Assembly (NCBI GenBank): GCA_021813445.1 | Contig: JAKAKP010000009.1 | Location: 1-32,397, forward strand | Origin: Deltaproteobacteria bacterium | Lineage (GTDB): Bacteria > Desulfobacterota > Desulfobaccia > Desulfobaccales > 0-14-0-80-60-11 | Length of the DNA stretch: 32,397 bases | Direction: 5' to 3' | Shown here: positions 4,218-25,415 of the stretch, one piece after another | How positions within the stretch are numbered: the stretch's first letter is position 1 | Layout of the letters: each line of letters opens with the position of its first letter | Position numbers and translations under genes: made by a program | The notes under the pieces: generated by a model | Told to the model about the DNA's origin: nothing | Databases searched by the model: none | The model's input: only the letters and a program-made list of their open reading frames with translations

Positions 4218-4287
4218 AACCAGGCCCGGCGGGAACAGGGATTTCCCGGCCCCTCTTATCCCTGCCAATCCTCCCCGCTATCGCCTT

Positions 4288-4545
4288 ATCATTAACCCAC
4301 AAGTCTTAGTTTGGCGGGAGAGCATTTCTGATTGTGTCCAGATTCTGCCAGGGCTAAATTCTTTTGAATAACTGGGTCTTAGGGTTGGGGCGCCCCAAAA
4401 TCCCCCCGGCCCCCTTTTTTCAAAGGGGGAGTAAGAAAGTCCCTGATTTAAGGTATTCTTTGGTGGCGCAGGCTTGCGCAGTTTTTTTGGCGCAACCTTG
4501 AAAGGCTGCGCCACCGGTTAAAAAACTTGTGGGTAAGGATAAGCC
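4288..4545 (+). repeat. Composite intergenic repeat, copy 2 (full length, upstream of gnd)
   Basis: This is the best full-length copy. Order: left end tcattaacccacaagtctta, a stretch with gagcatttctgattgtg, the GGGGCGCCCC palindrome at about 4387-4396, one G/C-run block (aaaatccccccggccccc then aaagggggag, to 4431), a core hairpin bounded by ggtggcgca (4462-4470) and tgcgccacc (4507-4515), and a right end aacttgtgggtaaggataag. By eye it matches the inverted copy at 8637-8898 over its whole length, with scattered substitutions. It occupies most of the 470-bp gap between the methyltransferase and gnd. The remainder (4546-4687) holds only the gnd leader. Confidence 0.85.
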
Positions 4546-4687: not shown

Positions 4688-6100
4688 ATGGGTGACGGAG
4701 ATTGCAGCATCGGCCTGGTGGGCCTGGGCACCATGGGCCGGAACCTGGTCTTGAACATGGCGGACCACGGGTTTGCGGTGGCCGTTTATAACCGCACCGG
4801 GGAAAAGACCAGGGAATTCATGGAGCAGGAAGTGGGGGGCCGCAAGATCCATCCCGGCTATACCCTGGCGGAGTTTGTCGGCCATCTGCAAGGGCCCCGG
4901 GCCATCATCATCCTGGTCTCCGCCGGGCCGCCGGTGGACGCGGTGATTGACGAACTACTGCCTTTTCTCTCCCCGGGGGACCTGATCATCGACGGCGGCA
5001 ACTCCTTTTTTAGGGATACCGACCGCCGGGGCCGGACCCTGGCGGCGAAAGGCTTGCTCTATTTGGGTCTGGGCGTCTCCGGGGGCGAGGCCGGGGCCCG
5101 CCACGGCCCCAGCCTGATGCCCGGCGGCCCGCCCGCGGCTTATGAACGGGTGCGCGCCATTCTGGAGGCAGCCGCGGCCAAAGTCCAGGGGGAGCTCTGT
5201 GTCGCCTATCTGGGGGGCGGCGCTGCCGGCCATTTCGTCAAAATGGTGCATAACGGTATCGAATATGCGGTGATGGAGTTGCTGGCGGAAGCCTACGACC
5301 TGCTGCGCCGGGGCCTGGGCCTGAGCCCCGGGGAGATAGCAGGAATTTATGAGGAGTGGAACCGGGGAGAGTTGGCCTCTTATCTGGTGGAGATCGCTTC
5401 GCCGGTCCTGCGCCGGGTGGATGAGAAGACCGGGCAGCCCTTGATCGACCTGATCCTGGATCAGGCCCGGCAGAAAGGCACGGGCAAGTGGACCTCCCAG
5501 GAGGCCATGGACCTGCAGGTGCCCACCCCCGGCATCGACACCGCGGTCATGATGCGGGACCTCTCGGGTTATAAGGCCGAGCGGGAGGCCGCGGCCCGGG
5601 TCCTCCAGGGACCGCCGCCCGTCTTTCCGGGGGACCGCCAGGCCTTCATCCGCCAGTTGGGCCGCAGCCTTTATGCCGCCATGGTCCTGGCCTTCGCCCA
5701 GGGCCTGGCTTTGCTGCAACGGGCTTCCCAGGTTTACGATTACCGCCTGGATTTGGCCACCGTGGCCCGCATCTGGCGGGGCGGCTGCATCATCCGCGCC
5801 GCCTTGCTGGAGGACATCCGGGCCGCGTACCAGGCCCGGCCCGATCTGGAGCACCTGCTCCTGGACCCCCGCCTGGGCCGGGAAGTCATGGCCCGGCTGC
5901 CGAACCTGCGGGCCGTGACCGCGGCGGCTGCGGCCGCGGGCATCCCCGCGCCGGGGTTGATGGTCTCCCTGGCCTATTATGACGCCCTGCGCAGCGCCCG
6001 GCTGCCCGCCAACCTGATCCAGGCCCAGCGCGACTACTTCGGGGCCCATACTTATGAACGGACGGATATAGCCGGCACCTTCCACACCCATTGGGATTAG
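4688..6100 (+). CDS. gnd: 6-phosphogluconate dehydrogenase, decarboxylating
   Basis: Oxidises and decarboxylates 6-phosphogluconate to ribulose-5-phosphate, making NADPH (cytosolic). The 470 residues match the long 6PGDH form. The dinucleotide motif is G12-L-G14-TM-G17 with NRT after beta2, followed by IIDGGNSFFRDT, GVSGGEAGARHGPS, the catalytic K185-MV-H188-N189 helix, KGTGKWTSQEA, and the C-terminal QAQRDYFGAHTYER and GTFHTHW. The ATG 4688 is preceded by GGAGG at 4678-4682 with 5-base spacing. An upstream in-frame ATG/GTG extension from 4529 would run out of the repeat and lacks homology, so it is rejected. zwf follows after 106 bp, and pgl after that, so the three probably form an operon. 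All key residues are present. Confidence 0.95.
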   Translation: MGDGDCSIGLVGLGTMGRNLVLNMADHGFAVAVYNRTGEKTREFMEQEVGGRKIHPGYTLAEFVGHLQGPRAIIILVSAGPPVDAVIDELLPFLSPGDLIIDGGNSFFRDTDRRGRTLAAKGLLYLGLGVSGGEAGARHGPSLMPGGPPAAYERVRAILEAAAAKVQGELCVAYLGGGAAGHFVKMVHNGIEYAVMELLAEAYDLLRRGLGLSPGEIAGIYEEWNRGELASYLVEIASPVLRRVDEKTGQPLIDLILDQARQKGTGKWTSQEAMDLQVPTPGIDTAVMMRDLSGYKAEREAAARVLQGPPPVFPGDRQAFIRQLGRSLYAAMVLAFAQGLALLQRASQVYDYRLDLATVARIWRGGCIIRAALLEDIRAAYQARPDLEHLLLDPRLGREVMARLPNLRAVTAAAAAAGIPAPGLMVSLAYYDALRSARLPANLIQAQRDYFGAHTYERTDIAGTFHTHWD

Positions 6101-6206: not shown

Positions 6207-7775
6207 ATGACCACTGCCGCCACCCCTGAGCCCACGGTCTTCGTGATTTTCGGCGCGGCCGGCGATCTGGCCTGGCGCAAACTGATACCGGCACTCCACA
6301 ACCTCTTTCTGGACCGGTGGCTGCCGGAAAAATTTCTCATCCTGGGTCTGGGCCACCAGCGGCTGGAGGATGCGGAGTTGCGCCAACATTTGCGCCGGGG
6401 GGTGGACCAGTTCTCCCGCCGGGGCAAAACCGAGGACGGGCCCTGGGCCAGCTTTGCTTCCCATCTATCCTTTGGCTCCTCGGAACTGGATGACCCCCGG
6501 ACTTACGCCTATCTGGCCAAGCAACTGGCCGCCCTGGACAAGGAGTGGAATACCCGGGCCCAACATGTCTTTTATCTGGCCATGCCGCCCGGCATGACCG
6601 GCACCGTTACCCGGGAGCTGGCCAAAGTCCGCCTGCACCAGGACCGCAAACGCTCCCGCATCGTCGTGGAGAAGCCCTTCGGCCAGGACCTGGCTTCGGC
6701 CCGGGAACTGAATCAAACCCTGGCGGCCAGCTTCGAGGAACCCCAGATCTTTCGCATCGATCATTATCTGGGCAAGGAGACGGTGCAGAATATCCTGGCC
6801 TTCCGCTTTGCCAACACCCTCTTTGAACCGGTATGGAACCGGCGCTATATCGATAATGTGCAGATCACCGTGGCCGAACAGGTGGGCGTGGAGAACCGGG
6901 GCCATTACTACGAAAAGGCCGGGGCCCTCCGGGATATGATCCAAAACCATCTGCTCCAGATTCTCTGTCTCATTGCCATGGAACCGCCCATTTCCTTTGA
7001 GGCCGACGAGGTCCGCAATAAAAAAGTGGACGTGCTCCGGGCCCTCCGGCCCATCCTCCCGGAAGAGGTGCATCGTTTTGCGGTGCGGGGCCAATATGGC
7101 GAAGGTAAGATCGACGCCCAGGAAGTCCCCGGTTATCGGGGGGAGACCAATGTGGCTCCGGATTCCCCCATTGAGACTTATGCCGCAGTGAAGCTCCTGG
7201 TGGACAACTGGCGCTGGCAAGGGGTGCCTTTCTATCTGCGTACCGGCAAACGCATGCAGACCCGGATTTCCGAGGTCTCCATCCAGTTCCGGCCGGTGCC
7301 CCACCAGTCCTTTCCCGCGGCCGCGGTGATGGACTGGCGGCCCAACCGCCTGATCATCGCCATCCAACCCGAGGAGGGAATTTTGCTGCGTTTTGAGGCC
7401 AAGTACCCTGGCCCCAGCATGCGCCTGGCCCCGGTGATCATGCAATTCTATTACAAGGAGGCCTTTCGCACCACCCCTCCGCAAGCTTATGAAACCCTGC
7501 TCCTGGACGTCATGCGCGGGGACGCCACCCTCTTCATGCGGGCTGATCAGGCCGAAGCCGCCTGGGAGGCGATCACTCCCGTGTTGGAGACCTGGGAGGA
7601 AGTCCGGCCCACCGATTTTCCCAACTATCAGGCCGGCACCTGGGGACCGGAGTCTGCGGACGCCCTGATCGCCCAGGACGGACGCAGTTGGGTGATGCCC
7701 ACCTTCCTGCAATGCCAGGAAGAGCTGGCAACCTGCCGGGTGACCATGGCCCCGGCGTCCAAGTCTGCCCCATGA
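6207..7775 (+). CDS. zwf: Glucose-6-phosphate 1-dehydrogenase
   Basis: Oxidises glucose-6-phosphate to 6-phosphogluconolactone with NADP+ (or NAD+), the entry step of the oxidative pentose phosphate pathway. The 522-residue protein has the coenzyme loop [12 protein letters not shown] (about residues 15-26), EKPFGQDL (about 153), the substrate signature R183-IDHYLGKE191, [34 protein letters not shown] and a C-terminal [16 protein letters not shown]. It is somewhat longer than the about 490-residue enterobacterial enzyme. The ATG 6207 has an AGGAGG ribosome binding site at 6196-6201. Its TGA overlaps the pgl ATG (ATGA), so zwf and pgl are coupled. Cofactor preference is not decidable from sequence here. 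Confidence 0.96.
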
Positions 7776-23218: not shown

Positions 23219-23315
23219 TTTACCCCCCTTTATAAAGGGGGGTAGGGGGGATTTTAACTATGCGGATCGAAAGGCAAAATCCCCCTAAATCCCCCTTTAA
23301 AAAGGGGGACTTAAA
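23219..23315. repeat. Paired G/C-run repeat blocks
   Basis: Two blocks face each other. The first, about 23221-23256, reads cccccctttataaagggggg then taggggggatttt. After a 20-base spacer (aactatgcggatcgaaaggc), the second, about 23277-23313, reads aaaatccccctaaatccccc then tttaaaaagggggac. They are near reverse complements and each is also self-complementary. They lie between the CoA-transferase start and the 3' end of the DUF559 gene. Confidence 0.8.
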
Positions 23316-23354: not shown

Positions 23355-23702
23355 TCACAGAAATTCATATATCTTTTCGAGCACTCCCTCGATATTCTTG
23401 AGCACATCTCGGTCAGAAAATCTCAAGACCGTAAATCCAAAGTGCTTCAGATAATTATCTCGAATTTCGTCCTTTTTCTTTCCTTCATCTGAATAATGCT
23501 GGCCGCCATCCAGTTCAATAATCAGCTTGGCCGAAGGGCAGTAAAAATCGACGATATAATTGCCGACGTTTTTCTGCCTATAGAATTGCTTGTCCTTTAA
23601 TTGCTTGCCTCTGATTTTGGCCCATAAATGTCTCTCCGCATCCGTCATATTTTTTCTGAGTGATCTGGCGAGGCCTTTGAGATTTTTATTGAATGGGAGC
23701 AT
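23355..23702 (-). CDS. DUF559 endonuclease-like protein
   Basis: About 115 residues of the DUF559 family, a PD-(D/E)XK nuclease fold related to very-short-patch repair nucleases. Motifs: TDAERHLWAKIRGKQL, YRQKNVGNYIVDFYC, then KLIIELDGGQHY. Candidate active-site acids (numbered from TTG 23708) are E25, D54 and E65-L-D67. The C-terminus (FTVLRFSDRDVLKNIEGVLEKI) is typical of the family. ATG 23702 is used; no clear ribosome binding site is seen. It is flanked on its 3' side by the paired G/C-run repeats and lies 35 bp from a damaged HNH-repeat gene. Codon use is noticeably more AT-rich than its neighbours, suggesting acquisition. Confidence 0.88.
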   Translation of the reverse strand: MLPFNKNLKGLARSLRKNMTDAERHLWAKIRGKQLKDKQFYRQKNVGNYIVDFYCPSAKLIIELDGGQHYSDEGKKKDEIRDNYLKHFGFTVLRFSDRDVLKNIEGVLEKIYEFL

Positions 23703-23737
23703 TTTCAACCAGATAGGAAATAAATTACGAGGAGAAA

Positions 23738-24573
23738 TTAATCCTTTGGCAATAGATTTATTGCTGACTTTAGTTCCAATACCTCAAGTGGTGCTTCTGC
23801 CCAATCATGCAACCAACATACAGTAAGATCGCAACCTTCCGGGTCATGTCCATGCTCTGCGAAGTTACTGCTCTTATACTCAAACTCTATATGAACATGT
23901 TGCCACATTGTTCCTTCCGGATTAAGACATCTTTTCCCCTCGCAGTCGGGGAAATCGGTTCGAATACTCTCAATAAGAAATCCTAACTCCCGGCTGACCA
24001 AACCGAAGAGGTAAACGACACCCTGCTCATTGACGGGGGCATAGCGAAGCCCGCGGAAGTCTATGGGCTCTCCGTAAATAATGCTTCTTTTTTTCTCCGA
24101 GGTTGGAAAGGGTTTAAATATTTTGGGAATTATTACCGGAATTTTCTTTTGTGTGTTTTTTTTGTTTGACAGGGTGTTCCCTCAAAAATTGTCGGCTCGC
24201 CGTATTTTTGAACGTATGCGTTAACGGCAGCGCGAAAAGTGCCCCATCTTTTTCTATAAGGATCTTCAGAAAAATGTCCTTCGGCATTCATTAATTTGAA
24301 TGTTGGCCTCCGGCCAAATTTTTTCCAAAGTTCCCCAATAGCTTTCATTAATTCTTCATCTGGTATCCGCTTAGAGCCTGAAACATTAAGGCTTACAGGA
24401 TTTGGTTTAAAACCAGCAGCTTCGACCGCTCGGTTAAAAGTTCCAAAATGGTTTAATAGAGTAGAGATAGATATTGAGCTTGTTCGTTTAAACTTCTCGT
24501 ATGTCAATGGTTCAGGGGAAATCGCATTTGCAACCCTTCTTATTTCTTGTAATATCTGTTCCTTTTTGTCCAT
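23738..24573 (-). pseudogene. HNH/homing-endonuclease-associated repeat gene interrupted by a -1 frame change at an A8 run
   Basis: The upstream part from ATG 24573 encodes two HNH-associated repeats (LTYEKFKRTSS...STLLNHFGTFNRAVEAAGFKP and ...GRRPTFK... YRKRWGTFRAAVNAY). Its zero-frame stop is at 24133-24135. Frame -1 then continues without a stop: KNTQKKIPVIIPKIF, then YGEPIDFRGLRYAPVNEQG, VVYLFGLVSRELGFLIESI, and FPDCEGKRC...HVHIEFEYKSSNF...LTVCWLHDWAEAPL up to 23740. Joined, this makes one protein of about 278 residues whose two halves fit one domain architecture. The only plausible join is the A8 tract on the coding strand (complement of 24156-24163). A 1-base loss, a switching tract or a programmed shift are all possible. 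AT-rich codon use points to transfer. Confidence 0.75.
24157..24163 (-). other. Candidate -1 slippery heptamer A_AAA_AAA
   Basis: In the zero frame of the HNH-repeat gene the codons are ACA AAA AAA ACA, giving the heptamer A_AAA_AAA used in -1 programmed frameshifting. A slip of one base leads into the frame that encodes the rest of the domain. The run is eight A long, so length change by replication slippage is equally possible. Confidence 0.45.
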
Positions 24574-24686
24574 GGCAATATTATTACTGCCAACTTCCCG
24601 AAATTTCAAGAGGAATCGCCGAGGCAGGTAATTATGAAAGCCCCAGGGATTGTCAGTTACCCCATTCTTGGATAAACTTTTAAATT

Positions 24687-25415
24687 ATGTTGATTTTTCC
24701 TGCAATTGACCTGAAGGGCGGCAAGTGCGTGCGTCTGCTCCAGGGGCGCAAGGAAGACGAAACCGTCTTCAGTAACGACCCGGTGGCCATGGGCCGTAAA
24801 TGGCAGGACCTGGGCGCCCAGTGGCTCCACGTGGTGGACCTGGACGGCGCGTTTAGCTCCCGCCCCCAAAACCTGGAAGTGATCCGGGGCCTGCGCCGGG
24901 CCCTGACCATCCCCATCCAATTGGGCGGGGGCCTGCGCACCCTGGAGACCCTGGCTCTCTACATCGATCTGGGCATCGACCGCCTGATCCTGGGCACCGC
25001 GGTGCTCAAGGACCCAGACCTGGTGGCCCGGGCCTGCGCCACCTACCCCGGCCGCATCGCCGTGGGCCTGGACGCCCGGGACGGCCTGGTGGCCGTGGAG
25101 GGGTGGACGGAAACCAGCACCCAAAAGGTGCTGGAAGTGGCCCAAAAACTGGTGCCCCTGAAGCCCGCGGCCTTGATCTACACCGACATCTCCCGGGACG
25201 GCGTCAAACGGGGCGTCAATGTGGAGGCCACCAAGACCTTGGCCCAGGCCGTGGACCTGCCGGTGATCGCCTCCGGGGGGGTGAGCACCCTGGCGGACAT
25301 CGAGGCGCTGCTGCCCCTGGAGCCCCTGGGGGTAATGGGGGTGATTATCGGCCGGGCGTTATATGACGGGGTCTTCCAGCTACCGGAAGCCCTGGAGTTG
25401 GCCCAATCCGGCTAA
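24687..25415 (+). CDS. hisA: Phosphoribosylformimino-5-aminoimidazole carboxamide ribotide isomerase
   Basis: Isomerises ProFAR to PRFAR in histidine biosynthesis, a (beta/alpha)8 barrel. 242 residues. Catalytic acids D8 (FPAIDLKGG) and D129 (AVGLDARDG) are present, as are VVDLDGAF, QLGGGLR, the phosphate loop IASGGVST and GVIIGRALYDG. There is no strong ribosome binding site before ATG 24687. No other his gene is in the window, so it is either a scattered locus or the end of a dispersed pathway. Its GC content is high and ordinary, in contrast to the AT-rich nuclease genes upstream. TrpF-type activity is not indicated. Confidence 0.96.
   Translation: MLIFPAIDLKGGKCVRLLQGRKEDETVFSNDPVAMGRKWQDLGAQWLHVVDLDGAFSSRPQNLEVIRGLRRALTIPIQLGGGLRTLETLALYIDLGIDRLILGTAVLKDPDLVARACATYPGRIAVGLDARDGLVAVEGWTETSTQKVLEVAQKLVPLKPAALIYTDISRDGVKRGVNVEATKTLAQAVDLPVIASGGVSTLADIEALLPLEPLGVMGVIIGRALYDGVFQLPEALELAQSG

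Follow-up and report, generated by a model that had tools for sequence, protein, structure and literature searches.

Background

A reading frame split at a run of A's may still yield the whole protein. The interrupted tssM1 of Citrobacter rodentium, with eleven A's, is rescued by poly-A slippage at about 20% (PMC4256274). Slippery heptamers without stimulators shift in E. coli at some 2-10 times a background near 0.05%, i.e. at less than about 0.6% (PMC4066793), and according to Baranov et al. a large proportion of genomes show selection against A/T runs once these reach nine bases (PMC1088944). Where a frame transition occurs in a single sequence and is confirmed by homologues, a survey of 1106 genomes ascribed it to an indel or a sequencing error (PMC3711429).

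The window analysed here, the whole of a 32,397-nucleotide stretch of a deltaproteobacterial genome (contig JAKAKP010000009.1, assembly GCA_021813445.1), holds on its minus strand, between hisA and a gene for a DUF559 protein, a gene that lies in two reading frames. A preliminary description had considered programmed frameshifting, a phase switch or decay as the origin of this arrangement. The best explanation, in our view a rather probable one, is that a stand-alone nuclease-like gene was acquired and has recently suffered a slippage indel.

One gene in two reading frames

The gene and its parts are as follows.

24133..24573, minus strand: zero-frame ORF, starting with ATG at 24573, 146 codons (146 aa), with two HNH_repeat units (PF18780, E = 1.6e-21)
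24406..24567, minus strand: first HNH_repeat unit (PF18780, 38.7 bits, above the cut-off)
24217..24366, minus strand: second HNH_repeat unit (PF18780, 41.1 bits, above the cut-off)
23738..24181, minus strand: -1 frame ORF, the second half of the gene, 147 codons, open from 24181 to the TAA at 23740-23738
24136..24181, minus strand: interval of the frame change, 46 nt, in which both frames are open
24156..24163, minus strand: run of eight A's, read in the zero frame as ACA AAA AAA ACA
23741..24094, minus strand: conserved C-terminal domain that belongs to no Pfam family, predicted PD-(D/E)XK-like fold, with the motifs NE..G, FPDC, IEFE and CD..VCW

When matched to a profile of 280 positions made from intact relatives, the zero frame covers positions 3-124 and the -1 frame positions 156-277, and since these are consecutive parts of one profile, the two frames represent one gene. 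The product of a -1 read-through, 278 aa long, aligns from end to end, with 60% identity, to an uninterrupted protein of 278 aa from a member of the Verrucomicrobia (L025). That the frames are halves of one gene, as had been proposed, is thereby borne out; of the coordinates first given to it, 24133-24573, the zero frame is correctly described, but the second half runs further, to 23738.

The zero frame closes 20 nt past the A-run with TAA TAA, the first of which is its stop codon (24135-24133). The -1 frame, in which the motifs YGEPIDFRG, APVNEQGVV, FPDCEGKR, IEFEY, HGHDP and CD..VCW are found, is stop-free over 147 codons, for which the chance at local composition is about 5e-5. The A-run lies inside the 46-nt overlap of the two frames, which do meet there as the preliminary description had it. 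Runs of eight A's or T's appear somewhere in the 886-bp insert that carries the gene (see below) in 37% of shuffles, and such a run is unremarkable alone. Within an 85-nt interval of such sequence the chance of eight A's is 2.6%, and within 46 nt it would be about half of that; the coincidence of the run with the interval of the frame switch is informative.

Homologues of the split gene

A scan with one genome per species gave 64 homologous loci in many phyla, nearly all from metagenome-assembled genomes, and of 395 genomes of the phylum that were scanned, 17 had matches. Both halves lie in a single, uninterrupted frame in about 40 repeat-bearing homologues from many phyla, with no frame break at the linker in any of them. 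The linker of the closest homologue, the verrucomicrobial protein mentioned above, has no A-run, and another homologue (L030) has seven A's at the matching place of its linker, where the frame is read straight through. Since the linker is not alignable at the base level, the ancestral length of the run is unreadable from the relatives.

Seven relatives carry breaks elsewhere, no two at the same place, caused by unrelated lesions: in-frame stops (L009, L027, L037 and L047), a frame change (L050) and deletions (L077 and L086). L085 may be an eighth. Going by these seven, the family would seem to decay often. With seven of about 47 repeat-bearing homologues broken, the proportion seems high even for accessory genes, and it may include assembly errors. 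Among the sequences compared, the break at the eight A's appears as a singleton, and a break of this kind points to an indel or a reading error, as the survey cited above also argues (PMC3711429).

Of 29 strongly conserved columns, one deviates from the family in the second domain, a rank of 20 among 50 sequences; no stops have gathered in the second half and its conserved residues are kept, so that the downstream frame may be called intact, as had been noted. Because this domain has no visible decay, the interruption is therefore either recent, or not real, or tolerated.

The two domains

HNH_repeat (PF18780) bears the description "homing endonuclease associated repeat", and the two units of the N-terminal half together score 76.9 bits against a cut-off of 26. 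Our literature search under the name of the repeat found no papers, and under PF18780 only repeat modelling, with no function given. The repeats are predicted to form two sets of four helices. Sequence searches of the PDB returned weak matches over the repeat half, mostly to TetR-type helix-turn-helix (HTH) regulators (E > 0.1), and a fold search with the whole protein likewise returned mostly TetR-type matches, without significance. On these predictions, the repeats would be small helical, HTH-like units, which fits DNA binding.

The window protein has neither an HNH domain nor any other Pfam family in its C-terminal half, and none was found consistently in 50 homologues. The model of the C-terminal domain, which has high confidence (pLDDT 95.7), shows a helix, three strands, a helix and a strand. 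Across 50 sequences E23, P49-D50 and E70 are invariant and E72 nearly so; the invariant glutamate of the NE motif falls in the first helix, while PD opens the second strand and ExE lies in the third. The acidic residues expected of a PD-(D/E)XK active site are present, in an ExE variant instead of ExK. Among the PDB fold matches EndoMS comes first and MspJI third, followed by SfiI and EcoRV; members of the superfamily have E-values of 0.6-3, the best match has E 0.61 and a TM-score of 0.39, and none is significant. Judged from the model and the conserved residues, the C-terminal domain looks like a PD-(D/E)XK nuclease with an ExE site. The name "HNH nuclease-like", under which the gene had first been described, is misleading, as the repeats are small and helical (HTH-like) and it is the second domain that looks like a nuclease, of PD-(D/E)XK type.

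The C-terminal domain falls outside the families of Pfam, NCBIfam and PADLOC. A search with NCBIfam gave no match, and the anti-phage defence models of PADLOC matched none of 35 full-length homologues. Phage records had no match to the joined protein; viral contigs had none when a single sequence was used, and two distant ones when an alignment was used. The unnamed domain, of about 110 aa, is found in many phyla (homologues L006-L087, L125 and L126), where it is joined to HNH repeats, joined to an EVE domain (L020), or alone, and it is rather likely that it represents a new nuclease-like family. Some genomes hold several copies of the domain (records JAHBXG, JAFLCN and JAEUJD). We also considered a restriction-modification operon, and rejected it when reading the ORFs near 12 intact homologues by eye gave no common partner gene.

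An insertion between hisA and a DUF559 gene

The features that define the insertion are the following.

23706..24590: insertion carrying the gene, about 886 bp, 41% GC; 176 bp instead in a sister genome (G004)
23355..23708, minus strand: DUF559 gene, the intact neighbour, present in two sister genomes
24687..25415, plus strand: hisA, the other neighbour, the conserved flank used to locate the empty site

The insert has 41% GC as compared with about 51-69% in the flanks outside the DUF559 stretch. The DUF559 gene is not part of the insertion, because it is present in two sister genomes. Three sister loci at the spot between it and hisA were compared (L100, L101 and L103, of which L100 belongs to G004 and L101 to G001). 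In G004 the flanks are 176 bp apart rather than 886 bp, and the site is empty; G001 has at this spot a gene whose product contains an HSDR_N (type I restriction) domain. The split gene is absent from six genomes of the same genus. The gene is foreign and probably of nuclease type, and the spot, occupied in two of the states seen and empty in a third, looks like one that single genes of this type enter and leave.

The neighbourhood has some further features. In a third sister genome (G005), which has no DUF559 gene, a gene for a Kef-type transporter precedes hisA. The empty site of G004 (L100, about 6240-6400 of the reverse complement) contains short palindromes, TTCCCAAGC...GCTTGGGAA, which may represent a REP-like element. 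An inverted-repeat element of the type CCCCCTTTATAAAGGGGG lies at 23219-23314 of the window, and further inverted matches to it flank the gene inserted in G001 on both sides (4220-4306 and 5910-5998 of the reverse complement of L101).

Origin of the frame break

The course of events that we consider rather probable would begin with the horizontal acquisition of a stand-alone gene for a two-repeat DNA-binding and nuclease-like protein, 278 aa on read-through. An indel from replication slippage on a run of A's, in the flexible stretch that links the domains, would then have left the two halves out of frame, recently and in this lineage. Normal translation would now produce a 146-aa fragment that consists of repeats only and has no nuclease-like domain, and the enzyme would be off or nearly off, while adventitious -1 slippage of the ribosome or of RNA polymerase on the A-run might perhaps yield traces of full-length protein. 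We infer that the base change is a real and recent one, and among the origins first considered, a recent indel is the one best supported. The intact second half weighs against this reading to the extent that it is equally expected of a working programmed or phase-variable gene, or of a sequencing error.

The last of these, in which the run was miscounted during assembly and the gene is truly continuous and working, is unlikely. It would account for a second half without visible decay and for a singleton break within a homopolymer, and the survey of 1106 genomes leads one to expect homologue-confirmed singletons to be mainly sequencing errors (PMC3711429). Against it stand the other homopolymers of the same genome, which we checked over 301 kb by ORF geometry only: ORFs of at least 200 aa contain about 20 runs of eight (A, T, C or G) and are unbroken by them, and among runs of at least eight the A-run described here is the only clear case that separates two ORFs (a run of eight G's that was flagged in L110 lies inside an ORF of 396 aa). 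The other long ORFs of the window also look uninterrupted. Since other long runs leave ORFs unbroken, a systematic homopolymer problem in this assembly is unlikely; a single error is possible.

Neither a programmed shift nor a phase switch is supported. Productive recoding, by -1 ribosomal frameshifting on A_AAA_AAA or by RNA polymerase slippage, would provide a repeat-only protein and a full-length nuclease side by side. The heptamer does have the phase that a -1 shift requires, the downstream half is conserved, and tssM offers a precedent. However, the split is neither common to nor needed by any of the homologues, about 40 of which are continuous, and the downstream sequence shows no RNA structure, with folding z-scores of -0.5 and -0.4 relative to shuffles. 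The sole element resembling a Shine-Dalgarno sequence is a marginal GAGG at a spacing of 17, the outer edge of the 6-17 nt interval (PMC4066793), and an element of this kind is present at 17% of insert positions (17-25% of positions). What would be expected of a programmed -1 frameshift is thus present as regards the in-phase heptamer, but absent as regards both conservation among homologues and a stimulator. The run of eight A's is also below the usual slippage-prone length, going by the nine-base figure (PMC1088944), and because stimulators are missing and selection is visible only from nine bases, we infer that it is leaky at most. Recoding of a productive kind seems improbable to us. In general, a slippery heptamer, however perfect it looks, is no evidence of recoding unless relatives have the same split.

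A phase switch, in which reversible changes of run length would move the nuclease between on and off states among the cells of a population, is the least probable origin, even with a homopolymer at the split, an intact downstream frame and as cargo a putative nuclease, for which switching would make sense, as the run is not conserved among relatives and eight A's are a common run length in this genome.

In our reading, and returning to the slippage indel, the gene would have encoded a selfish or defensive DNA nuclease, stand-alone and site-recognising, which an indel would have switched off in this organism. It would be much bolder, and improbable when both parts are taken jointly, to see the A-run as a dose setter, through slippage or phase switching, for stand-alone nucleases of PD-(D/E)XK type that have an ExE site and form an undescribed, widely transferred family, whose catalytic domain is joined to varied DNA-sensing parts (HNH repeats, EVE). 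The occurrence of the unnamed domain across many phyla, repeatedly acquired and repeatedly broken, is as expected of selfish or defence nucleases. We find this C-terminal domain more interesting than the frameshift, and it deserves a family model.

Comparison with known systems

The arrangement described here shares with tssM1 of Citrobacter rodentium (PMC4256274) a frame split at an A-run and a conserved downstream part of the protein, but tssM1 has eleven A's and a measured rescue, whereas here there are eight and rescue is not in evidence. Haloarchaeal plasmid proteins, several of them annotated as HNH endonucleases, are 28-36% identical to the N-terminal half with its HNH_repeat units (PF18780); they match this half only, and no HNH domain makes up the C-terminal half of the present protein. 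For that half, the PD-(D/E)XK nucleases EndoMS/NucS, MspJI, SfiI and EcoRV offer the comparison, as the same order of elements is predicted and comparable acidic residues are conserved; the third motif here has no lysine. BamHI has an ExE active site in place of ExK.
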